From positions 1 through 64,000 of the forward strand of contig WGNU01000007.1 of assembly GCA_016124385.1 (NCBI GenBank): a DNA stretch of 64,000 nt, written 5' to 3'. The position numbers and the translations under genes are program-made. Shown piece by piece: positions 14,106 to 26,885 of the stretch. The stretch's first letter is position 1. Every line of letters begins with the position of its first letter. The DNA comes from Alphaproteobacteria bacterium. GTDB lineage: Bacteria > Pseudomonadota > Alphaproteobacteria > Micropepsales > Micropepsaceae. Below the pieces are notes generated by a model. It did not search any database and had not been told where the DNA came from. It worked only from the letters and a program-made list of their open reading frames with translations.

Positions 14106-14181
<76 letters not shown>

Positions 14182-15342: not shown

Positions 15343-16764
15343 CTAGACCGCCTCTCGCGCCCAGAGCCGTTCGGTGAGAAGGCCGACGTCACGCTCGATC
15401 GCCTCGGCGGCATCGAGGCAGAGATCCTCGCGGAAGCGCGCGGCGGAGAGTTGAACGCCGATCGGCGCGCCGTCGTGAAGGCTGGTCGGCGCGATCGCGG
15501 CGGGCAAGCCCAGCAGATTCATCGCGACCGAATAGCCCAGGCAATCGATCACTTCGTCCGCGCCCTCGTCGTCGCGGACATCGAGATCGACGGGGAAGGG
15601 CGGCAAGATCGACATCGGGCTGAGGAGGAGGGGCGTTTCCTCAAAGAACAGCATCCATTTGCGCAAAAGGGCCGTGCGCTCCATCTGGCCAGCCATGTAG
15701 CCCTCGCGCGGGAGAACCTGCGAGCGGCGCTTCAGCGCGTCGAGGAAGAAGCGGATCTTCCCGCTCCCCATCTGGTTGACGATGGGGCGCTGGAGCGATT
15801 CGATCTCGGTCACCATCAGATCCATCCAGAGTTCGCCGACGCGGCGCAGATCCGGCGCCTCGCGTTCGATGATCGCGTAGCCGGATTTCTCGAGGATCCC
15901 CGCCGCGCGGTCGAGCGCGTGGAGGACGGCGGGGTGGACCGCGCGGTCGAAGGGCGAGGCCTTGGCGAGCGCGACGCGGATGGGCTTCACCGGGCGGGGG
16001 AATTCCAGCGGAGCCGGCACCCACCAGGGATCGAGCGGGCTTCGCGCCGCCATCACGGCAAGGCCGACGCGCAGATCATCCACGTGGCGCGCGAGCGGGC
16101 CCTGGACAGAGAGGAGCTGCGCCATCAGCGGGCGCTCGGCGACGGCGGACGGGAGATAGGCCGGCACGCGGCCGAAGGTCGGGCGGATGGTCGCAACGCC
16201 ATTGCAGTAGGCGGGAAAGCGGAGCGAGCCGCCGATATCGTTGCCGTGGGCGAGCGCGCCGATGCCGGCCGCGAGCCCCGCGCCCGCGCCGCCCGAGGAG
16301 CCGCCGCAGGTGACGGCCGGGTTCCAGGGGTTCTTGGTCGGCCCGAAAAGCGGATTGTCCGTGAAGGCGCGGAGCGAGAATTCCGGCGTGTTCGTGCGGC
16401 CGATGATGACGGCGCCGGCGTTCAGAAGATTATCGACGACGGGGGAATTCGCGGGCGCCTTGATGTCGTTGAGCGCGGGAATGCCGTTCGGCGAGGACTG
16501 GCCCTCGACGTCCACGTTGTCCTTGATCGTCACGGGCACGCCCGCGAGGGGGCCGGGATCGATGCCGGCGGCGAGCGCGGCGTCGATCGCGCGGGCGCGG
16601 GTCATCGCGGTGTCGCCGGTGTCGCGCGTGACGGCGTTGATCGCGGGGTTGGCGGCGCGCATACGCGCGACCGCGGCCTCGGCCACCTCGCTCGCGGCGA
16701 TTTTCTTTCCGCGCACGGCGGCCGCGATTTCGCTCGCGGACCATTGCCAGATCGGTTTGCTCAT
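15343..16764 (-). CDS. Amidase signature family enzyme
   Basis: A 473-aa amidohydrolase with the Ser-cisSer-Lys triad of the amidase signature family: Lys81 in VTIKDNVD, the cis-Ser in CGGSSGGAGAG (~157), and the nucleophile Ser in GNDIGGSLRFPA (~180). Members hydrolyse small amides, including carbamates and amino-acid amides; the substrate here cannot be told. There is no GatB/GatC gene nearby, so it is not the tRNA amidotransferase subunit. It is transcribed divergently from the guanidine operon, 412 bp apart, and may belong functionally to nitrogen scavenging, but that is only a guess from position. Confidence 0.88.
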   Translation of the reverse strand: MSKPIWQWSASEIAAAVRGKKIAASEVAEAAVARMRAANPAINAVTRDTGDTAMTRARAIDAALAAGIDPGPLAGVPVTIKDNVDVEGQSSPNGIPALNDIKAPANSPVVDNLLNAGAVIIGRTNTPEFSLRAFTDNPLFGPTKNPWNPAVTCGGSSGGAGAGLAAGIGALAHGNDIGGSLRFPAYCNGVATIRPTFGRVPAYLPSAVAERPLMAQLLSVQGPLARHVDDLRVGLAVMAARSPLDPWWVPAPLEFPRPVKPIRVALAKASPFDRAVHPAVLHALDRAAGILEKSGYAIIEREAPDLRRVGELWMDLMVTEIESLQRPIVNQMGSGKIRFFLDALKRRSQVLPREGYMAGQMERTALLRKWMLFFEETPLLLSPMSILPPFPVDLDVRDDEGADEVIDCLGYSVAMNLLGLPAAIAPTSLHDGAPIGVQLSAARFREDLCLDAAEAIERDVGLLTERLWAREAV

Positions 16765-16853: not shown

Positions 16854-16890
16854 CGCGCGTCATCGTGCCCGATCGCGCGTCATCGTGCCC
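16854..16890. repeat. 17-bp tandem direct repeat, candidate activator site
   Basis: CGCGCGTCATCGTGCCC occurs twice, at 16854-16870 and 16874-16890, with a 20-bp period. The second copy continues into an inverted repeat, CGTGC-N6-GCACG at 16884-16899. It lies about 90-125 bp upstream of the predicted start site of the sigma-54 promoter, the usual distance for an enhancer-binding protein such as NtrC. It does not match the classical NtrC consensus exactly, so the protein is uncertain. Confidence 0.5.
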
Positions 16891-16951
16891 AAATGCACGC
16901 CACGGGGCGCGTGTGCCTCGCGAGAAGCAGGGGATGCGCCCCTGTCCGGTT

Positions 16952-16968
16952 CTGGCACATGGCTTGCT
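16952..16968 (+). promoter_or_regulatory. Sigma-54 (-24/-12) promoter of the guanidine operon
   Basis: CTGGCACATGGCTTGCT matches the sigma-54 consensus YTGGCAC-N5-TTGCW, with GG at 16954-16955 and GC at 16966-16967 separated by exactly 10 bases. Transcription would start near 16979, only a few bases before the riboswitch. Sigma-54 control typically reports nitrogen limitation through NtrC, which suits genes for using guanidine as a nitrogen source. Confidence 0.8.
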
Positions 16969-16983
16969 TCGCGACCCGGCAAA

Positions 16984-17090
16984 GGCGCTAGGGTTCCGGC
17001 CGCGCGCGGCGGTGACTGGTCCGAGAGCGGCTGCCTGCGGGGGCATCCTTCTGCGCAGGTACACGGCGGGACAAAAGCCCGGGAGGCCAA
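16984..17090 (+). promoter_or_regulatory. Guanidine-I (ykkC) riboswitch
   Basis: The hallmark conserved segments occur in order: CTAGGGTTCCG at 16988-16998, ACTGGTCCGAGAG at 17015-17027, and ACACGGCGGGACAAAAGCCC then GGGAG at 17061-17085. These are the invariant blocks of the ykkC class that binds guanidinium. The 90 bases to the first gene hold possible stems (for example GCCGGGGC/GGCCCGG near 17115-17145) but no obvious U-run, so control may act on translation or through Rho. The location before a guanidine carboxylase operon agrees with the known role. Confidence 0.92.
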
Positions 17091-17176
17091 AGAGGTGCGG
17101 GTGCGCGCCGGGGCTTCCGTCATCGGCCCGGTCCTCTTCTCCGCATCGTCGTTGCAACGCGGTCGGAGGACTGAGC

Positions 17177-18253
17177 ATGAGACAGCGATTTTCAAAGTAC
17201 ATCGCAGCCGGTTTGGGGCTGGTGGCTGCCGCGGCGCTGGTGATCGCGCCGGCGCAGGCGGAAGAAAAGACCGACTTCAAATTCGCCTGGTCGATCTATG
17301 TGGGCTGGATGCCGTGGGGCTATGCGGCCGATTCCGGCATCGTCAAGAAATGGGCCGACAAATACGGCATCACGATCGAGGTCGTTCAGTTCAACGACTA
17401 TATCGAGTCCATCAATCAGTACACGGCCGGCGCCTTCGACGGCGTGACGCTCACCAACATGGACGCGCTCTCCATCCCCTCGGCCGGCGGCGTCGACACG
17501 ACGGCGATCATCATCGGTGATTTCTCGAACGGCAACGACGCGCTGATCCTCAAAGGCGAGGGCGGTCTCGCGGACGTAAAGGGGCAGAAGGTCAATCTCG
17601 TTGAATACTCCGTGTCGCATTATCTGCTCGCGCGCGCGCTGCAGAGCATCGGTCTCACCGAGAAGGACGTGACGGTCGTCAACACGAGCGATGCGGACAT
17701 GGTGGCGGCGTTCGGCACGGCGGAAGTGACCTCGGTCGTCACGTGGAATCCGCTGGTCGCGGAAATCCTCGCGATGCCGAACGCGACCAACGTGTTCGAT
17801 TCGAGCAAGATCCCTGGCGAGATCATCGACATGGCGGTCGTCAATACCGAGACGCTGAAGGACAACCCCAAGTTCGCCCAGGCGCTTGCGGGCATCTGGT
17901 ACGAGACGATGAGCCTCATGTCGGCGGACACGCCTGAGGGAGCGGAAGCGCGCGCGGCAATGGGGACCGCCTCGGGCACCGATCTTGAGGGCTACGAGGC
18001 ACAGCTCGCGGCCACGAAGATGTTCTACACGCCCGCCTCGGCCGTCGAGTTCACGACGAGCTCGGCACTGCCCGACACGATGAACCTCGTGCGCGCGTTC
18101 CTCTTCGAGCATGCACTCCTCGGCGCGGACGCCGGCTCGGCCGATTTCATCGGCATCGAGGTTCCGGGCGGCACGGTGCTGGGCGATGCGGACAACGTGA
18201 AGCTGCGCTTCACGGAAACCTACATGAAGGCGGCGGCGGACGGCGCGCTCTAA
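17177..18253 (+). CDS. Guanidine/urea-carboxylase-associated ABC transporter, substrate-binding protein
   Basis: A 358-aa periplasmic protein with a signal peptide (h-region AAGLGLVAAAALVIA, cleavage after AQA at residue 28). The mature part is of the NMT1/SsuA-like class (FKFAWSIYVGWMPWGYA, NDYIESINQYTAGAFDGVT, LVEYSVSHYLLARAL), characteristic of the binding protein found beside urea carboxylase. Start ATG 17177 has GGAGG seven bases upstream. First gene of the riboswitch-controlled operon. Given the riboswitch and enzymes downstream, guanidine is a likely ligand, though binding has to be inferred. Confidence 0.85.
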   Translation: MRQRFSKYIAAGLGLVAAAALVIAPAQAEEKTDFKFAWSIYVGWMPWGYAADSGIVKKWADKYGITIEVVQFNDYIESINQYTAGAFDGVTLTNMDALSIPSAGGVDTTAIIIGDFSNGNDALILKGEGGLADVKGQKVNLVEYSVSHYLLARALQSIGLTEKDVTVVNTSDADMVAAFGTAEVTSVVTWNPLVAEILAMPNATNVFDSSKIPGEIIDMAVVNTETLKDNPKFAQALAGIWYETMSLMSADTPEGAEARAAMGTASGTDLEGYEAQLAATKMFYTPASAVEFTTSSALPDTMNLVRAFLFEHALLGADAGSADFIGIEVPGGTVLGDADNVKLRFTETYMKAAADGAL

Positions 18254-18272: not shown

Positions 18273-19100
18273 ATGGCCTCACGTCTCATCAATCTGAGGC
18301 CCAATCGCAGGGTGGCGATCGCGCTCGCCACCCTGCCTTTCATTCTCTCGATCCTCATCTATCTCGTGTTCTCGGCGGCGCGGCTTGCCGAGAATCCGAA
18401 CGACAAGGTGCTGCCGGCGCCGAGCTCGTTCGTGGAGACGTTCGAGCGCTACGTGCTCGAGCCCGATGTGCGGACGGGCGACTATCTCCTGTGGAGCGAC
18501 ACGCTGGCGAGCCTTTACCGGCTGGGCAGCGGCGTCGCGATCGCGACCCTCGTGGCGCTCGTCTTCGGTATCGGCCTTGGGCTCGTGCCCGTGGTGGGGA
18601 GCGTCTTCTCAGCGTTCGTCACCGCCGTCGCGATGGTGCCGCCGCTCGCGGTGCTGCCGATCCTCTTCATCGCGCTGGGACTGGGCGAGACCGCCAAGAT
18701 CGCGCTCATCGCGATCGGCATCGGCCCCGTCATCATGCGCGACTTGGCGCTGCGGGTCGCGGAAATCCCGCGCGAGCAGCTCATCAAGGCGCAGTCGCTC
18801 GGTGCTTCCACGTGGCAGATCGTCTGGCGCATCGTGCTGCCGCAAGTGCTGCCGCGCCTCATCGATTCCGTGCGGCTCGTGATGGGGCAGGCTTGGCTCT
18901 TCCTCATCGCGGCCGAAGCGATCGCGGCGCAATCGGGCCTCGGCTACCGCATCTTCCTCATGCGGCGCTATCTCTCGATGGACGTGATCCTGCCTTACGT
19001 CTTCTGGATCACGCTCTTGGCGGTCGCGAGCGATCTCCTTCTCCGGCTATTGCGCACCTGGGCGTTTCCCTGGGCGCGCGGGGAGACCAAGGCGCCGTGA
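18273..19100 (+). CDS. ABC transporter permease for guanidine-type substrate
   Basis: A 275-aa inner membrane protein with about six helices and the binding-protein-dependent transport domain. The EAA loop that contacts the ATPase is visible as LIKAQSLGASTWQIVWRIVL near residues 171-190. It starts 19 bp after the binding-protein gene, and its stop codon overlaps the GTG start of the ATPase gene (GTGA), so translation is coupled. Role inferred from the operon. Confidence 0.88.
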   Translation: MASRLINLRPNRRVAIALATLPFILSILIYLVFSAARLAENPNDKVLPAPSSFVETFERYVLEPDVRTGDYLLWSDTLASLYRLGSGVAIATLVALVFGIGLGLVPVVGSVFSAFVTAVAMVPPLAVLPILFIALGLGETAKIALIAIGIGPVIMRDLALRVAEIPREQLIKAQSLGASTWQIVWRIVLPQVLPRLIDSVRLVMGQAWLFLIAAEAIAAQSGLGYRIFLMRRYLSMDVILPYVFWITLLAVASDLLLRLLRTWAFPWARGETKAP

Positions 19101-19870
19101 GCAATGTCGTCGTCGACAATGTCTGGAAGGAATACGAGACGCAGGTCGTGCTCGAGCGGATCAGCTTCGAGACGGGCGAGCATGCGTTCGTCGCGATCGT
19201 CGGCCCGTCGGGCTGCGGCAAGTCGACGTTCCTACGCCTCCTCATGAGCGAGGAGCGCGCGAGCCGCGGCACGATCACGATCGACGGCGAGGCGCTGCCC
19301 CCCGAGCCGACGCCCGAGCGCGGCATCGTCTTTCAGCGCTATTCGGTGTTCCCGCATCTGACGGCGCTGCAAAACGTGCTGGTCGGGCTCGAACTCAGGG
19401 ACGGGAATTTCTTCGGCCGCCTGTTCGGGCGCAGGCGGCGCCAGGCGCGCGCGGCGGCGGCCGAGATGCTCGATCACGTGGGCCTCAAGGACGCTTCGTC
19501 GAAATATCCAGCGCAGCTCTCGGGCGGCATGCAGCAGCGCCTCGCGCTCGCGCAGGCGCTCATCACCAAGCCGAAAGTCCTCTTGCTCGATGAGCCGTTC
19601 GGCGCGCTCGATCCCGGCACGCGCAAGGATATCCACGCGCTGCTCCTCAGGCTGTGGCGCGAGACGCAGATGACGGTGCTGATGGTGACGCACGATCTGC
19701 CGGAAGCCTTCACGCTCGCGACGCGCGTGATCGCGTTCGATCGCCTGCGCAACCGGCCGGAGGAAAAGGCCGCCTATGGCGCGACGATCACCTTCGATGT
19801 CGATCTCGAAGCCGAGCGGCGCTGGCAGACCATGGTTCCGCAGGCGCCCGTAGCGGAGGCCGCGCCATGA
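19097..19870 (+). CDS. ABC transporter ATP-binding protein for guanidine-type substrate
   Basis: A 257-aa ATPase with Walker A GPSGCGKST (~37), Q-loop VFQRYSVFPHL, signature LSGGMQQRLALAQ (~139), Walker B LLLDEPFGALDP and the H-loop VTHD. Start is GTG 19097, overlapping the permease stop. An alternative reading upstream in this frame is shadow sequence. With the two previous genes it makes a complete importer of the nitrate/taurine/urea-carboxylase-associated type. Confidence 0.9.
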   Translation: MSNVVVDNVWKEYETQVVLERISFETGEHAFVAIVGPSGCGKSTFLRLLMSEERASRGTITIDGEALPPEPTPERGIVFQRYSVFPHLTALQNVLVGLELRDGNFFGRLFGRRRRQARAAAAEMLDHVGLKDASSKYPAQLSGGMQQRLALAQALITKPKVLLLDEPFGALDPGTRKDIHALLLRLWRETQMTVLMVTHDLPEAFTLATRVIAFDRLRNRPEEKAAYGATITFDVDLEAERRWQTMVPQAPVAEAAP

Positions 19871-20040
19871 CGCCGACTTGCATCGCGCGCGCGGCGTTGC
19901 TAGGAGGCGGCTTCGGTCCGGCCGGGACGACCCGGCACGGCGCGTTCGCCCAAAGTGCGGACCATGGCTGGGACGACCCAGCGCTTGCCGCGACCCGCGC
20001 AATGCGCGGCCGGCCTCAGCGCAGGGAGCCTCGCTCGTGA
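19867..20040 (+). other. Palindrome-rich spacer holding a coupled 57-codon open frame
   Basis: The spacer between the ATPase and the first DUF1989 gene holds two hairpins sharing the 10-mer GGGACGACCC (19924-19933 and 19970-19979), the first enclosed by GGTCCG/CGGACC (19915-19920, 19958-19963). An open frame from ATG 19867 overlaps the ATPase stop (ATGA) and ends in a TGA that overlaps the next GTG start (GTGA). Its residues are low-complexity and resemble no protein that I know. I think it is a repeat insertion that has stayed open so ribosomes pass through; a tiny protein is not excluded. Confidence 0.4.
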
Positions 20041-20837
20041 GCGACATTTCCACCTCTTCAACCGGCGTCGCGGCCGCGCGCGCGCGCTATGAGGAACTCT
20101 TCGCCAAGGGCCGCACGCGCGAGGCGGGCGCGGTGCCCAGCCTCACGATCGCGCTCGACCGGGTGCGGATGACGACCGACATACCCGCCGGCTGGTACGT
20201 GGCGCTCGCCGTCTCGCGCGGCGAGATCGTTCAGATCGAGACGCTCGCGGGCGGGCTTCAGGTGGCGGCGCAAATCTGGAATGCGCGCGACCCGTCTGAG
20301 CGGTTCAACGCGGGCGACACGGTGAAGGTCCAATGGAGCGCGGCGCTGGGCGCCGGGCGGTTGCTTCTTTCCGACATGGGGCGCGTGCTCTTTTCGATGC
20401 TCGCCGATACGGGGCCGGGGAACGATGCGGTCTCGGGCGTTTCCTCGCCCGCCAGCAACCGCGCGCGGTTCGGCGATGAGACGCTCCGCTCGGCGCGGGA
20501 AAATTTCCTCGCGGGCGCGGCCAAGCTCGGCCTCGACAAGCGCGACCTTCACCCCGCGATCAGTTTCTTCTCCGACGTGCGCGTCGGCGCGGACGAGCGC
20601 TTCCACTGGGGGACGAGTGCGGCCGAGGGCGCGCGGGTGGATTTGAAAGCCGCGATGGATCTCCTCCTCATCGTCTCGAACACGCCGCACCCCTTGGCGC
20701 CCACGGGGAGCGGCGAGGGCGGGGTCCGGCTCGCGATTGGGGAGTGCGCGGATGCGGCGCTCGGCGATTTCTGCCGTACGCGGACGGAGGAAGCCGTCCG
20801 CGCGTTCGAGAACACCGACGCCTATCTCGCCGGTTGA
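20037..20837 (+). CDS. Carboxyguanidine deiminase subunit, DUF1989 (urea carboxylase-associated protein 2 type)
   Basis: A 266-aa DUF1989 protein. Conserved segments include RFNAGDTVKVQWSAALGAGR, LLSDMGRVLFSM and IVSNTPHPL. Together with the next gene it corresponds to the CgdA/CgdB pair, which deiminates carboxyguanidine (product of guanidine carboxylase) to allophanate. I assign it to the longer of the two families (UAAP2). I start at GTG 20037, with GGGAG upstream; the frame extends to 19878 through the repeat-rich spacer without family-like residues. It lies 11 bp before its partner. Confidence 0.82.
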   Translation: MSDISTSSTGVAAARARYEELFAKGRTREAGAVPSLTIALDRVRMTTDIPAGWYVALAVSRGEIVQIETLAGGLQVAAQIWNARDPSERFNAGDTVKVQWSAALGAGRLLLSDMGRVLFSMLADTGPGNDAVSGVSSPASNRARFGDETLRSARENFLAGAAKLGLDKRDLHPAISFFSDVRVGADERFHWGTSAAEGARVDLKAAMDLLLIVSNTPHPLAPTGSGEGGVRLAIGECADAALGDFCRTRTEEAVRAFENTDAYLAG

Positions 20838-20848
20838 AGGAAGCGATC

Positions 20849-21481
20849 ATGTCCGCAGCGCTCCGTCCCGAATTCGCGCGCCTCAACGAAATTGTCGCCG
20901 CGCGCCGCCCGTGGTCGCATGTGATGAAGAAGGGCGAGACGCTCCGCATCATCGACCTGGAAGGTCAGCAGGCGGTCGATACGCTCTTCTACAATCCGCA
21001 CGATTTCGCCGAGCGCTACAGCGCGCAGGATACCGTCGCGGCCCAGGGCGCGCCCTATCTCGGCACCGGCACCAAACTCATGTCGAGCGAGGGCCGCGTG
21101 ATGGCCACCATCACCGCGAATACGGGCGGGCGGCACGACACGTCGGCCGGCGCGTGTTCCTGCGAGAGCAACACGGTGCGCTTTGGCCATCACACGCGCT
21201 ACATGGAGGCGTGCCGGGAAAATTTCCTCGTCGAGATCGCCAAATACGGCATGGGCAAGCGCGACCTCGTCTCGAACATCAATTTCTTCATGAACGTGCC
21301 GATCGAGCCCGACGGCACGCTCGCGATCGTCGATGGGCAATCGGCGCCCGGCGGCTATGTCGAGCTGCGCGCGGCGATGGACATTCTGTGCGTCATCTCG
21401 AACTGCCCGCAGATCAACAATCCCTGCAACGGGTTCGATCCGAGCCCGATCCGCGTGCTCGTCTGGCCGCCCATGGCCTGA
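20849..21481 (+). CDS. Carboxyguanidine deiminase subunit, DUF1989 (urea carboxylase-associated protein 1 type)
   Basis: A 210-aa DUF1989 protein, paralogous to its upstream neighbour. Typical segments are RIIDLEGQQAVDTLFYNPHD, SAGACSCESNTVRFGHHTRY with conserved Cys residues that may bind metal, and ISNCPQINNPCNGFDPSPIR. Known role of the family: partner subunit of carboxyguanidine deiminase, converting carboxyguanidine to allophanate. ATG 20849 has GAAGGAAG upstream. It lies 11 bp before the carboxylase. Confidence 0.85.
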   Translation: MSAALRPEFARLNEIVAARRPWSHVMKKGETLRIIDLEGQQAVDTLFYNPHDFAERYSAQDTVAAQGAPYLGTGTKLMSSEGRVMATITANTGGRHDTSAGACSCESNTVRFGHHTRYMEACRENFLVEIAKYGMGKRDLVSNINFFMNVPIEPDGTLAIVDGQSAPGGYVELRAAMDILCVISNCPQINNPCNGFDPSPIRVLVWPPMA

Positions 21482-21492
21482 GCCGACCATCC

Positions 21493-24400
21493 ATGTTCAG
21501 CCGCGTCCTCATTGCCAATCGGGGCGAAATCGCGGTCCGCATCGCGCGGACGCTGCGGCGCCTCGGCGTGCGGACGATCGCGGTCTATTCGGACGCCGAC
21601 CGCTTCGCGCGCCACGCGCAGTTGGCCGACGAGGCGATCCGCATCGGGCCGGCGGCGGCGAGCGAAAGCTATCTCAATGTCGAGGCGCTGCTCGCGGCCG
21701 CGAAGGCGAGCGGCGCGGAGGCGGTGCATCCGGGCTACGGGTTCCTCTCGGAGAACACGCGTTTCGCGCGCGCGCTGGAGGCGGCGGGCATCGCCTTTAT
21801 CGGGCCGACGCCCGAACAGATCGAGGCGTTCGGCCTCAAGCACCGCGCGCGCGAGCTGGCGGCGGCCGCCGAGGTGCCGCTGCTGCCCGGCAGCGCGCTG
21901 CTCGAGAGCCTCGACGAAGCGCGCGCGGAGGCCGCGCGGATCGGTTATCCGGTGATGCTGAAAAGCACGGCGGGGGGCGGCGGCATCGGGCTTCAGCGCT
22001 GCGCCGATGAAAGCGAGCTCGCGCATCGCTTCGATGTCGTGCGGACGCTCGCGCGCAACAATTTCAGCGACGGCTCGCTCTATTTGGAACGCTTCGTGCC
22101 GGACGCGCGCCATGTCGAGGTGCAGATCTTCGGCGACGGCAAGGGCCGTGTGGTCGCGCTCGGCGACCGGGATTGCTCGCTGCAGCGGCGCAATCAGAAA
22201 GTGATCGAGGAGGCACCGGCGCCCGGATTGAGCGACGCGCAGCGCCGGCACCTCGCGGACGCGGCGGTGCGGCTCGGCGAGGCGGTCCGCTATCGCTCGG
22301 CGGGGACGGTCGAGTTCCTCTACGACGTCTCGCGGCGCGATTTCTACTTCCTCGAAGTCAACACGCGGCTTCAGGTCGAGCACGGCGTCACCGAAGCGAT
22401 CACGGAGATCGATCTCGTCGCGTGGATGGTGCGGCTGGCGGCCGGCGAGACGCTGCCGCTCGATGCGCTGCCGGAGCCCAAGGGTCATGCCGTCGAGGCG
22501 CGGATCTATGCCGAGAATCCGGGCCGCGACTTCGCGCCCTCGGCGGGGACGATCACGCATGCGGCGTTTCCGGGCACCGCGCGCGTCGATCACTGGATCG
22601 CTCCGGGGACGGAGGTTTCGCCCTTCTACGATCCGCTGCTCGCCAAGGTGATCACGGCGGGGGACACGCGCGACGCGGCGCTGGCGCGGCTCGGCGCGGC
22701 GCTTGGCGAGACGCAGATCGAGGGCGTCGCGAGCAATCTCGCCTATCTCCGGGCCGTCGCGGCGCTGCCGGCGCTCGCCGCGGCGCGCCACACGACGCGG
22801 ACGCTGCAGGACCTCGTCCCCGCGCTGCCCGAGATCGACGTCCTCACTGGCGGGCCGCAATCGAGCCTTCAGGAATGGCCGGGGCGGCTCGGCCTCTGGG
22901 ATGTCGGCGTGCCGCCATCCGGGCCGATGGACGCGCTCTCGCTGCGCCTTGCCAATCTCATCGTCGGAAATCCCGAGGGCGCGCTCGCGCTCGAGATGAC
23001 GATCGAGGGCGCGCGGCTGCGGTTTCGGGGCGATGCAACCGTCGCGCTTGCGGGCGCCGCGATGGCGATGATTCTCGACGGCGAGGCGGTCCCGCCCTTC
23101 GCGCCGATCGCCGTCAAGGCCGGTCAAACGCTCGCCATCGGGCGCATTCAGGGGCCGGGGCAGCGGGCGTATCTCGCGGTGCGCGGCGGGTTCGATGCCG
23201 CGCCCTATCTGGGTTCGCGCGCGACGTTCATGCTCGGCGGGTTCGGCGGGGCAACCGGCCGCGCGCTCCGCCCGGGCGATGTGCTGCGGATCGGCACGCG
23301 CGCCGCGCAGGCGCCAGTCTCCGTTCCGCTGCCCGAGGACCTGCGACCCCCCCTCACGCGCGACTGGACGCTCCGTGTGCTGATCGGTCCGCACGCGGCG
23401 CCCGATTTTTTCGCCGTCGAGGACGTCGAAACCTTCCTCAGCCATGCTTACGAAGTGCATTTCAACTCCGCGCGCACCGGCGTCCGGCTGATCGGTCCCA
23501 AACCGGCCTGGGCGCGGCCCGATGGCGGCGAGGCGGGGCTTCACCCCTCGAACATCCACGACAACGCCTATTCGATCGGCGCGATCGATTTCACGGGCGA
23601 CATGCCCATCATCTTGGGACCGGATGGCCCGAGCCTTGGCGGGTTCGTGTGCCTGGCCGTCGTCATCGGGGCCGATCAATGGCAGCTCGGCCAACTCGCG
23701 CCCGGCGACCTTGTGCGGTTCGTCGCGGTCGATCCGCCTCTAGCGGCGCAGGCGCGGGACGATCAGGACACGGCGCTGCACGCGCTGAAGCCGCTGCCGG
23801 CGGCGCCCGCCGCTCCCACGGTTCTGCGAACGGGGCCGTGCGACGCCGTGCTCGCGCGCTACGGCGAGGGTGCGGAGGAAGTGACGCTCCGCCGCTCGGG
23901 CGAGGATGCGCTCCTCGTCGAGTTCGGGCCGCCCGTCCTCGATCTCGCCCTTCGCTTCCGCGCGCACGCGCTGATGGAGCGGCTCCTCGCGGACCGGCCG
24001 CCGGCGCTCATCGATGTGACGCCCGGCATCCGCTCGCTCCAGGTGCATGTCGACGGGCGCGCGATGCCGGTCGAGCGGCTGGCGCGGCGGATCGAGGCGC
24101 TGCTCGAAGACCTTCCGCAGACGGAGGAAATCAGCGTTCCCAGCCGGATCGTCCATCTGCCGCTCGCGTGGGACGACCCGCAGACGCGGCTCGCGATCCG
24201 TAAATATCAAGAGCTCGTGCGCTCCGATGCGCCGTGGTGCCCGTCCAATATCGAGTTCATCCGGCGCATCAACGGGCTTTCATCGGAAGAAGACGTCCGC
24301 GCGATCGTTCATGCGGCGCGCTACATGGTGCTGGGATTGGGGGACGTCTATCTGGGCGCACCGGTCGCAACGCCGCTCGATCCGCGCCACCGGCTGGTCA

Positions 24401-25101
24401 CGACGAAATACAATCCCGCGCGCACCTGGACGCCGGAAAACGCCGTCGGCATCGGCGGGGCCTATCTCTGCATCTACGGGATGGAAGGGCCGGGCGGCTA
24501 TCAATTCGTCGGGCGCACGCTCCCCGTCTGGAGCGCGTGGCGGCAGGAGGGAAGCTTTGCGGCCGGCAAGCCGTGGCTCCTGCGCTTCTTCGATCAGATC
24601 CGCTTTCACGCCGTCACCAGCGAGGAGCTGGACGATTTGCGCGCGCGGTTCCGCCAGGGCGATCACCTGATCGCGGTCGAGGAGAGCCACTTCTCGATGG
24701 CGGACTACCGCCGCTTCCTCAGCGCCGAGGAGACCTCGATCCGCGCCTTCAAGCAGCGCCAGCAGGAGGCCTTCGAGGCCGAGCGCGCGCGCTGGGGCGC
24801 GGAGGACCGCGCCGCCTCCGCGCCGCCGGCGGGCGAGGCGAAGGCCGCCGGCGCAGCGCTGCCCGGAGGCGCGGTCGCCGTCAGCGTCCACGTGCCGGGC
24901 AATGTGTGGACGGTCGATGTGCGCGAGGGCGATCTCGTTTCGGCGGACGACGTTCTCCTCGTCATCGAATCGATGAAGATGGAAATCGCGATCCCCGCGC
25001 CGGTCGGGGGTCGCGTTGCCAAGATTCTCGCGCGGCCCGGACAGACGGTCGCCGCCGGCGATGTCATCGCCGCGATCCTGCCGGAAGAGGCCCGCCCATG
25101 A
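21493..25101 (+). CDS. Guanidine carboxylase (urea carboxylase family, biotin-dependent)
   Basis: A 1202-aa multidomain enzyme. In order: biotin carboxylase with ATP-grasp (residues ~1-450, start MFSRVLIANRGEIAVRIART, LKSTAGGGGIGLQ, EVNTRLQVEHGVTE); the KipA/AHS2-like and KipI/AHS1-like halves of the carboxyltransferase (~460-1060); and a biotinyl domain ending the chain with VIESMKMEI, biotinylated at Lys1162. It carboxylates guanidine to carboxyguanidine with ATP and bicarbonate. The sequence alone says urea-carboxylase family; the guanidine riboswitch and both deiminase subunits in the operon argue for guanidine. Its stop overlaps the next start (ATGA). Confidence 0.93.
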   Translation: MFSRVLIANRGEIAVRIARTLRRLGVRTIAVYSDADRFARHAQLADEAIRIGPAAASESYLNVEALLAAAKASGAEAVHPGYGFLSENTRFARALEAAGIAFIGPTPEQIEAFGLKHRARELAAAAEVPLLPGSALLESLDEARAEAARIGYPVMLKSTAGGGGIGLQRCADESELAHRFDVVRTLARNNFSDGSLYLERFVPDARHVEVQIFGDGKGRVVALGDRDCSLQRRNQKVIEEAPAPGLSDAQRRHLADAAVRLGEAVRYRSAGTVEFLYDVSRRDFYFLEVNTRLQVEHGVTEAITEIDLVAWMVRLAAGETLPLDALPEPKGHAVEARIYAENPGRDFAPSAGTITHAAFPGTARVDHWIAPGTEVSPFYDPLLAKVITAGDTRDAALARLGAALGETQIEGVASNLAYLRAVAALPALAAARHTTRTLQDLVPALPEIDVLTGGPQSSLQEWPGRLGLWDVGVPPSGPMDALSLRLANLIVGNPEGALALEMTIEGARLRFRGDATVALAGAAMAMILDGEAVPPFAPIAVKAGQTLAIGRIQGPGQRAYLAVRGGFDAAPYLGSRATFMLGGFGGATGRALRPGDVLRIGTRAAQAPVSVPLPEDLRPPLTRDWTLRVLIGPHAAPDFFAVEDVETFLSHAYEVHFNSARTGVRLIGPKPAWARPDGGEAGLHPSNIHDNAYSIGAIDFTGDMPIILGPDGPSLGGFVCLAVVIGADQWQLGQLAPGDLVRFVAVDPPLAAQARDDQDTALHALKPLPAAPAAPTVLRTGPCDAVLARYGEGAEEVTLRRSGEDALLVEFGPPVLDLALRFRAHALMERLLADRPPALIDVTPGIRSLQVHVDGRAMPVERLARRIEALLEDLPQTEEISVPSRIVHLPLAWDDPQTRLAIRKYQELVRSDAPWCPSNIEFIRRINGLSSEEDVRAIVHAARYMVLGLGDVYLGAPVATPLDPRHRLVTTKYNPARTWTPENAVGIGGAYLCIYGMEGPGGYQFVGRTLPVWSAWRQEGSFAAGKPWLLRFFDQIRFHAVTSEELDDLRARFRQGDHLIAVEESHFSMADYRRFLSAEETSIRAFKQRQQEAFEAERARWGAEDRAASAPPAGEAKAAGAALPGGAVAVSVHVPGNVWTVDVREGDLVSADDVLLVIESMKMEIAIPAPVGGRVAKILARPGQTVAAGDVIAAILPEEARP

Positions 25102-26885
25102 GATCGCTCGAGATCGCCGCCTTGCGCGCGGCCTATGACGGGGGCCTCGATCCGCGCGAAGTGATCGCGGACGTGCTGGCCGCCCTGCGCGCGCTGCCGG
25201 ATCGCTCGATCTTCCTCTCGCGGGTGGCGGAGGAGACCGCGCTCGCGGAAGCCGAGCAACTGGCGGGTTTGCCTGCCGAGGCGCGGGCGCGCCGGCCGCT
25301 CTTCGGCATTCCCTTTGCGGTCAAGGACAACATCGATTGCGCGGGGCTGCCGACGACGGCGGGCTGTGCGCCCTTCGCGAACACGCCCGATGAAGACGCA
25401 CCGGCGGTCGCGGCGCTCCGCCATGCGGGCGCGATCCTCATCGGCAAGACGAACATGGATCAGTTCGCGACCGGCCTCGTCGGCACGCGCTCGCCCTTCG
25501 GTGTGCCCCATTCCGTTTACAGCGAGGCGCTCTGCGCGGGCGGGTCGAGCTCGGGCTCGGCGGTCGCGGTGGCGCTAGGGCTCGTCAGTTTCGCGCTCGG
25601 CACGGATACGGCGGGATCGGGCCGCGTGCCCGCGCAGTTCAACGGCCTCATCGGCATCAAGCCGACGCCGGGGCGCGTGTCGACGCGCGGGGTCGTGCCG
25701 GCGTGCCGCTCCCTCGATTGCGTCTCGGTCTTCGCGCTGACGGTCAGCGACGGCGATCTCGTCCGCCGCCAGATCGAGGCGTTCGATGCCGCCGATCCCT
25801 TCAGCCGGCGGGCGGAGCCGTCGGTGATCGAGCTGCGCCAGCCGCGCCTTGGCATTCTCGCCGAGCGCGACCTCGCGCGCCTCAGCGGCGCGGCCCGCGC
25901 GCTCTACGGCGCGGCCGGCGCGGCAGCGGAGGCGATCGGTGCCAGCCTCGAGACGATCGACTATCGCCCGTTCGCCGCGATGGCGGCGCTGCTCTATGGT
26001 CCCTTCGCGGCCGAACGCGCGGCGGCGCTCAGCGCGCCGCTCGCCGCCTATCCGGATGCGTTCGATCCGAGCGTCAGAACGATCCTTGAAGGCGCGATGA
26101 AGATCTCCGGCGCCGATGTCTTCGCCGCGCAGGCGCGCCTGGCTGCGCTTCGCCGCGAGATCGTGCCGCTGCTCCAGCGCGTCGATGCGCTGCTGCTGCC
26201 AACGGCGCCCTTCCATCCGACGATCGCGGAGATCGCCGCCGATCCGATCGGCGTCAACGCGGCGCTCGGGACGTACACGAATTTCGTCAATCTCGCGGGG
26301 CTCGCGGCGGTCGCGCTGCCGGCCGGGGCGGATGCGTCGGGTGTTCCCTTCGGCGTCAGCCTCATCGCGCGCGGCGACAGCGACGCGGCGCTTGGCGTGC
26401 TCGCGGATCGTCTCTCGCGGCGGCTGGGCGTTCCCATGGGCGCGACGGGTCATCAGGCCATCGCGCCCGCGCTCAGCGATGCGCCCGAGCATCTGGGGCT
26501 CATTCCGCTCGCGGTGGTCGGCGCGCATCTGACGGGCCAGCCGCTCAATCATCAGCTCACGGATTGCGGCGGGCGGCTGTGGCGGACGACCTGCACAGCG
26601 AGCGATTACCGCTTCTACGCGCTCGCGGGGGCGGGGCCGCGCCGGCCCGGGCTCATCCGGGAGCCGGGATTTTCAGGGCCGGGCATCGAATGCGAAATCT
26701 GGATGATGCCGGCGGCGGGCTTCGGGCGGTTCGTCGCCGCGATCCCCCGGCCGCTCGGCATCGGCGCGGTGGTGCTCGAGGATGGAACGAGCGTCCGGGG
26801 CTTCATCGCCGAGCCGGTCGCGGCCGAGGGCGCCGTCGAGATCACCGGCTTCGGCGGCTGGCGGGCCTATCTCGCCTCGCTCTAG
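25098..26885 (+). CDS. atzF: Allophanate hydrolase
   Basis: Hydrolyses allophanate to ammonia and CO2, the last step of the pathway. The 595-aa protein has an amidase-signature domain (~1-440) with Lys in FAVKDNID (~76), Ser in CAGGSSSGSAV (~152) and nucleophile Ser in GTDTAGSGRVPA (~176). The C-terminal AtzF domain (~475-595) carries GQPLNHQL, ECEIWMMP and GFGGWRAY. ATG 25098 overlaps the carboxylase stop, so translation is coupled. Its own stop TAG shares bases with the stop of the convergent coq4 (CTAG at 26882-26885). Confidence 0.93.
   Translation: MRSLEIAALRAAYDGGLDPREVIADVLAALRALPDRSIFLSRVAEETALAEAEQLAGLPAEARARRPLFGIPFAVKDNIDCAGLPTTAGCAPFANTPDEDAPAVAALRHAGAILIGKTNMDQFATGLVGTRSPFGVPHSVYSEALCAGGSSSGSAVAVALGLVSFALGTDTAGSGRVPAQFNGLIGIKPTPGRVSTRGVVPACRSLDCVSVFALTVSDGDLVRRQIEAFDAADPFSRRAEPSVIELRQPRLGILAERDLARLSGAARALYGAAGAAAEAIGASLETIDYRPFAAMAALLYGPFAAERAAALSAPLAAYPDAFDPSVRTILEGAMKISGADVFAAQARLAALRREIVPLLQRVDALLLPTAPFHPTIAEIAADPIGVNAALGTYTNFVNLAGLAAVALPAGADASGVPFGVSLIARGDSDAALGVLADRLSRRLGVPMGATGHQAIAPALSDAPEHLGLIPLAVVGAHLTGQPLNHQLTDCGGRLWRTTCTASDYRFYALAGAGPRRPGLIREPGFSGPGIECEIWMMPAAGFGRFVAAIPRPLGIGAVVLEDGTSVRGFIAEPVAAEGAVEITGFGGWRAYLASL

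Follow-up and report, generated by a model that had tools for sequence, protein, structure and literature searches.

A predicted sigma-54 promoter ahead of the Guanidine-I riboswitch: a recurrent and apparently undescribed stack in Pseudomonadota

The stretch of DNA analysed here (the window; 64,000 nucleotides of contig WGNU01000007.1, from a bacterium of the Micropepsaceae) carries an operon on its plus strand, starting at 17177. Its first three genes encode an ABC transporter: a substrate-binding protein at 17177–18253 (TIGR03427, 545.9 bits, cut-off 333.9), 'putative urea' by annotation and guanidine by context, a permease (18273–19100) and an ATP-binding protein (19097–19870). These are followed by UAAP1 (20037–20837, start codon uncertain; TIGR03425, 213.5 bits, cut-off 205.95) and UAAP2 (20849–21481; TIGR03424, 324.3 bits, cut-off 284.7), the two subunits of carboxyguanidine deiminase (PMC12508155), by guanidine carboxylase, annotated as urea carboxylase (21493–25101; TIGR02712, 1760.6 bits, cut-off 1303.85), and by allophanate hydrolase (25098–26885; TIGR02713, 702.9 bits, cut-off 511.05). 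Together these genes make up the full guanidine carboxylase set. A divergent amidase gene lies upstream on the minus strand (15343–16764). On the same strand, at 14109–14181, is a tRNA gene whose anticodon, CTT by alignment, assigns it to lysine.

What lies between the amidase gene and the operon? The sequence-only reading had proposed a guanidine-I riboswitch, and a covariance search bears this out. With cmscan, the complete RF00442 model (1–107) aligns to 16977–17087 of the plus strand at 78.3 bits (E 3e-12), above the gathering score of 63 bits. This Guanidine-I (ykkC) aptamer is the single copy in the genome, and it stands ahead of genes for guanidine degradation (carboxylase, UAAP1/2, allophanate hydrolase and ABC transporter). 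In aptamer family, operon content and gene order the locus resembles known Guanidine-I riboswitches ahead of guanidine carboxylase operons. At the level of the order, the aptamer was found in only one of 96 genomes, the source genome itself, while a carboxylase homologue of about 58% identity occurs without riboswitch in two others (G020 and G016). Taken together, these distributions suggest that the operon was probably acquired here.

The end of the aptamer overlaps a possible expression-platform hairpin (17080–17120, plus strand), in which GGAGGCC would pair with GGCTTCC. This 7-bp hairpin has no U-tract and does not outperform shuffled sequences. Terminator scans found no U-tract terminator after the window's aptamer, and folding of the leader gave no significant structure (z of −1.0 and +0.6). 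Across the loci, the aptamer tail pairs with downstream sequence in 33%, against 16% in shuffles, and none of these analyses yields a firm expression platform for the window. A hairpin with a U-run lies 3' of the aptamer in R. johnstonii and several relatives, but is absent from the window. Rho-dependent termination and masking of the ribosome site are candidates for the output stage in the window.

Just upstream of the aptamer is CTGGCACATGGCTTGCT (16952–16968, plus strand), which reads CTGGCAC-N5-TTGCT. It has GG at −24, GC at −12 and the full sigma-54 consensus, with seven bases between TGGC and TTGC, the correct spacing. The strict pattern YTGGCAYR-N4-TTGCW occurs nowhere else in the window, where 0.03 matches are expected, and it occurs twice in the 2.43-Mb, 74% complete source genome; purely as an off-spacing control, the pattern one base short between −24 and −12 gave 12 matches in a scan of the genome contigs. 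The genome's second strict match (C8:52028–52044, minus strand) precedes, at short distance, a gene of the GGDEF type (diguanylate cyclase-like). Counting 12 bases past the C of the GC at 16966–16967, the −24/−12 geometry predicts a transcription start at 16979 on the plus strand, two bases into the Rfam aptamer and nine bases 5' of CTAGGG. The exact spacing and the start at about 16979, with ykkC blocks nine bases on, had both been claimed earlier, and both hold by this geometry.

Could the −24/−12 match be due to chance, or be a relict, with another promoter transcribing the operon and the riboswitch alone mattering? The lone riboswitch-bearing genome of the order, which may mean a recently acquired cassette, leans this way. 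We nevertheless judge the explanation very improbable, given the small number of strict matches expected, the cognate RpoN encoded in the genome (together with NtrBC and NtrYX), and a search between the amidase gene and the operon that found no sigma-70-like site. The element is moreover conserved at a fixed distance in other genomes, while the letters of its spacer vary.

Is this arrangement, put forward earlier as the best candidate for a new regulatory architecture in the window, peculiar to it? We screened 385 genomes of Alphaproteobacteria and 398 of Pseudomonadota for RF00442 and scored the upstream region of each locus, counting sites with a −24/−12 score of at least 12.5 out of 15.3. 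A correctly spaced element at a set distance precedes 70 of 87 Pseudomonadota Guanidine-I loci, compared with about 1.4 in dinucleotide shuffles, the loci counted being related sequences and not independent events. In the alphaproteobacteria the site lies 30–48 bases before the TAGGG core (33/47 loci; shuffles 0.36), and in other Pseudomonadota 55–115 bases before it (37/40; shuffles 1.04). When the two halves were shifted by 1–3 bases, only 0–3 loci scored. Loci with the stack belong to 27 families of Pseudomonadota, 17 of them alphaproteobacterial and 10 from other groups, and R. johnstonii 3841, R. tropici CIAT 899 and Pantoea agglomerans have perfect sites; in the first of these, plasmid pRL9 also repeats the gene order of the window operon. 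The comparison of upstream regions proposed in the sequence-only reading thus favours the promoter, and it removes the window's claim to be special. The elements, their conservation and their co-distribution are direct observations.

Does this conservation reflect the lateral spread of one cassette rather than selection on the promoter? We consider this quite improbable, in spite of a patchy distribution, many plasmid-borne copies and the single copy within the order. The promoter–aptamer distance differs between groups, predicted starts falling at −6 to −19 relative to TAGGG in the alphaproteobacteria and at −35 to −85 in gamma- and betaproteobacteria. The alphaproteobacterial median of −12 coincides with the base at which the Rfam model begins; the non-alphaproteobacterial median is −58. 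The N4 letters vary from locus to locus while GG and GC stay constant, and the site is gone from a family (f22) mostly devoid of RpoN.

Family f22 has 32 loci, 30 of which head the same transporter operon, and none has a sigma-54 site at the conserved place. An RpoN match is missing in 23 of the 32 genomes, and most of the remainder have divergent copies; one genome (G851) has a canonical RpoN, yet no sigma-54 site. We call the family Rhodobacteraceae-like because RpoN is missing. The absence of the site throughout may represent one single loss. In many of these loci (L095, L100, L101, L108–L135) TTGAC/TTGCC-like boxes can be seen by eye some 45 bases 5' of TAGGG, as though the sigma-54 promoter had given way to a sigma-70 one.

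How do loci with other gene content behave? Four of five EamA-type exporter loci are without the site and the fifth has a weak match. No sigma-54 site was found upstream of an APC-permease locus or of a guanidinase-like locus. There are exceptions among the assimilation loci: six alphaproteobacterial and two others lack the site although their genomes have RpoN, three of them belong to a single genus, in which the −24 half has decayed. In a Sinorhizobium fredii plasmid locus the sigma-54 site was likewise not found. In loci L029, L035 and L040, all of one genus, the aptamer stands ahead of the permease gene; these loci have a TTTGCTGTAATTGTATACAGAGTTTGG-like block in common, and their −24 half is decayed.

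Further upstream, spanning −125 to −86 relative to the predicted start, lies a tandem direct repeat. Two 20-bp copies (16854–16873 and 16874–16893) stand head to tail. A 17-bp direct repeat had been reported here; the first 17 bp of the copies are indeed identical, but the feature is really a tandem duplication of period 20. Its proposed role as an enhancer stands more tentatively. Within the 250 bp upstream, the alphaproteobacterial NtrC-type matrix has its best position at TGCCCAAATGCACGCCA (16886–16902, plus strand; score 4.0, shuffle P 0.014–0.034), which begins in the second copy, and its second-best at TGCCCGATCGCGCGTCA (16866–16882, plus strand; score −1.6), which begins in the first copy and extends into the second. 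They lie at −66 and −86 from the promoter, distances used in other loci, but most relatives score 8–15 at similar distances. By this measure the two positions are low-scoring half-sites of a degenerate palindrome. The activator would therefore bind most likely at the repeat, in whose two copies these top-scoring positions begin.

What do the relatives carry at these distances? In an unbiased dyad count upstream of gamma- and betaproteobacterial promoters, the top motif was GCAC-N7-GTGC, the classical NtrC site (10/37 loci versus 0.3 shuffled). It has no exact match in the alphaproteobacterial loci. A palindromic matrix seeded with it and trained on those loci converged on TGCNCAA-N3-TTGNGCA, present in 24 of 33 (0.15 in shuffles), although the scores are inflated here, these being the loci used for training. 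The genes for P-II, which are textbook NtrC targets, provide an independent result because the matrix was never trained on their upstream regions: 27 of 30 were positive, against 0.9 in shuffles. Altogether, NtrC-type palindromes accompany 24/33 alphaproteobacterial and 29/37 other loci.

The activator might still be something other than NtrC, with sigma-54 driving the operon and NtrX, or another enhancer-binding protein that reads the 20-bp repeat itself, doing the work. NtrYX is encoded beside NtrBC, the NtrC matches of the window are poor, and the period of the repeat is near two helical turns. We regard this as unlikely, since the palindromes of the other loci are shared with P-II promoters, and the strong sigma-54 activator matches of the source genome, in its 74% complete assembly, are NtrC and NtrX only.

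What would such a stack accomplish? Its recurrence across Proteobacteria suggests that expression of the genes probably requires both a shortage of nitrogen and the presence of guanidine. When nitrogen is limiting, NtrC in its phosphorylated form, or its paralogue NtrX, would sit some 85–105 bp upstream of the start and remodel sigma-54 RNA polymerase at the −24/−12 element. Transcription would then begin at about 16979, at the first bases of the aptamer. The RNA would fold as it is made, and bound guanidine would let the downstream leader permit expression of the operon, by read-through or by release of the ribosome site. The products would import guanidine and degrade it to ammonium.

We infer the start site, the activator, the direction of the switch and the AND logic, and the best reading, which we consider likely, is a two-input AND gate of nitrogen limitation and guanidine. 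The two-layer logic suggested earlier from the window alone gains strong support from the conserved stack, from its disappearance where RpoN is mostly absent, from its being mostly missing at exporters and from the NtrC-type enhancers nearby. Counting against it are the weak NtrC-like sites of the window (4.0 and −1.6), a leader with neither U-tract terminator nor significant structure, and the site-less assimilation loci in genomes with RpoN together with the S. fredii plasmid locus. A broader proposal seems to us reasonably likely: that across Pseudomonadota a conserved serial gate governs guanidine catabolism, with NtrC/sigma-54 first and the Guanidine-I aptamer second; that alphaproteobacterial transcripts start at the aptamer's first nucleotides; that export genes mostly do without the nitrogen layer; and that lineages lacking RpoN have replaced it.

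How does this compare with known systems? Discussions of guanidine riboswitches usually cast them as the regulators of the genes they precede. The published accounts of guanidine carboxylase operons consulted here do the same and leave a sigma-54/NtrC layer unmentioned (PMC12186494, PMC12508155, PMC11410670); it is this layer that the window would add. NtrC/sigma-54 nitrogen-scavenging promoters (glnA, glnK-amtB, urease, ABC uptake) share with the stack the −24/−12 element, nitrogen-uptake genes and, at about 100 bp upstream, palindromic enhancers (degenerate in the window), but here an aptamer at or soon after the start supplies a second, ligand-specific input. A 2025 survey of sigma-54 regulons predicted sigma-54 control for COG3665 and nitrate-type ABC genes; it does not contain 'guanidine', has 'riboswitch' in one reference title only, and does not describe the promoter–aptamer geometry (PMC12316311). 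In B. subtilis, TnrA binds upstream of ykkC, and an effect of TnrA on expression was not seen (PMC4475385). There too a nitrogen-limitation regulator lies upstream of a guanidine riboswitch gene, though regulator and sigma factor differ. In the literature accessible to us we found no paper linking guanidine riboswitches to sigma-54, RpoN, NtrC or nitrogen limitation, and to that extent novelty is provisional; the stack is widespread and apparently undescribed as such. The finding is less strange than first noted, because every part is known, while its scope has widened from one locus to a pattern of Pseudomonadota.

Were the serial gate real, it would amount to a general, unreported rule by which guanidine riboswitches fall into two kinds of circuit, one for nutrition and one for detoxification. 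Degradation operons would treat guanidine as a reserve nitrogen source, and loci with export genes alone would treat it as a toxin. A nitrogen-starvation promoter placed first would make this physiological role testable: guanidine alone, in ammonium-rich medium, should not induce the degradation operons. The gate would also matter for the design of riboswitch reporters and of sensors for guanidine, and for the question of where in the environment guanidine or metformin is broken down.

In two loci, L026 and L031 (genomes G417 and G338), the aptamer and a perfect sigma-54 site stand ahead of a gene for a TonB-dependent receptor, which suggests that outer-membrane uptake is part of the guanidine circuit.
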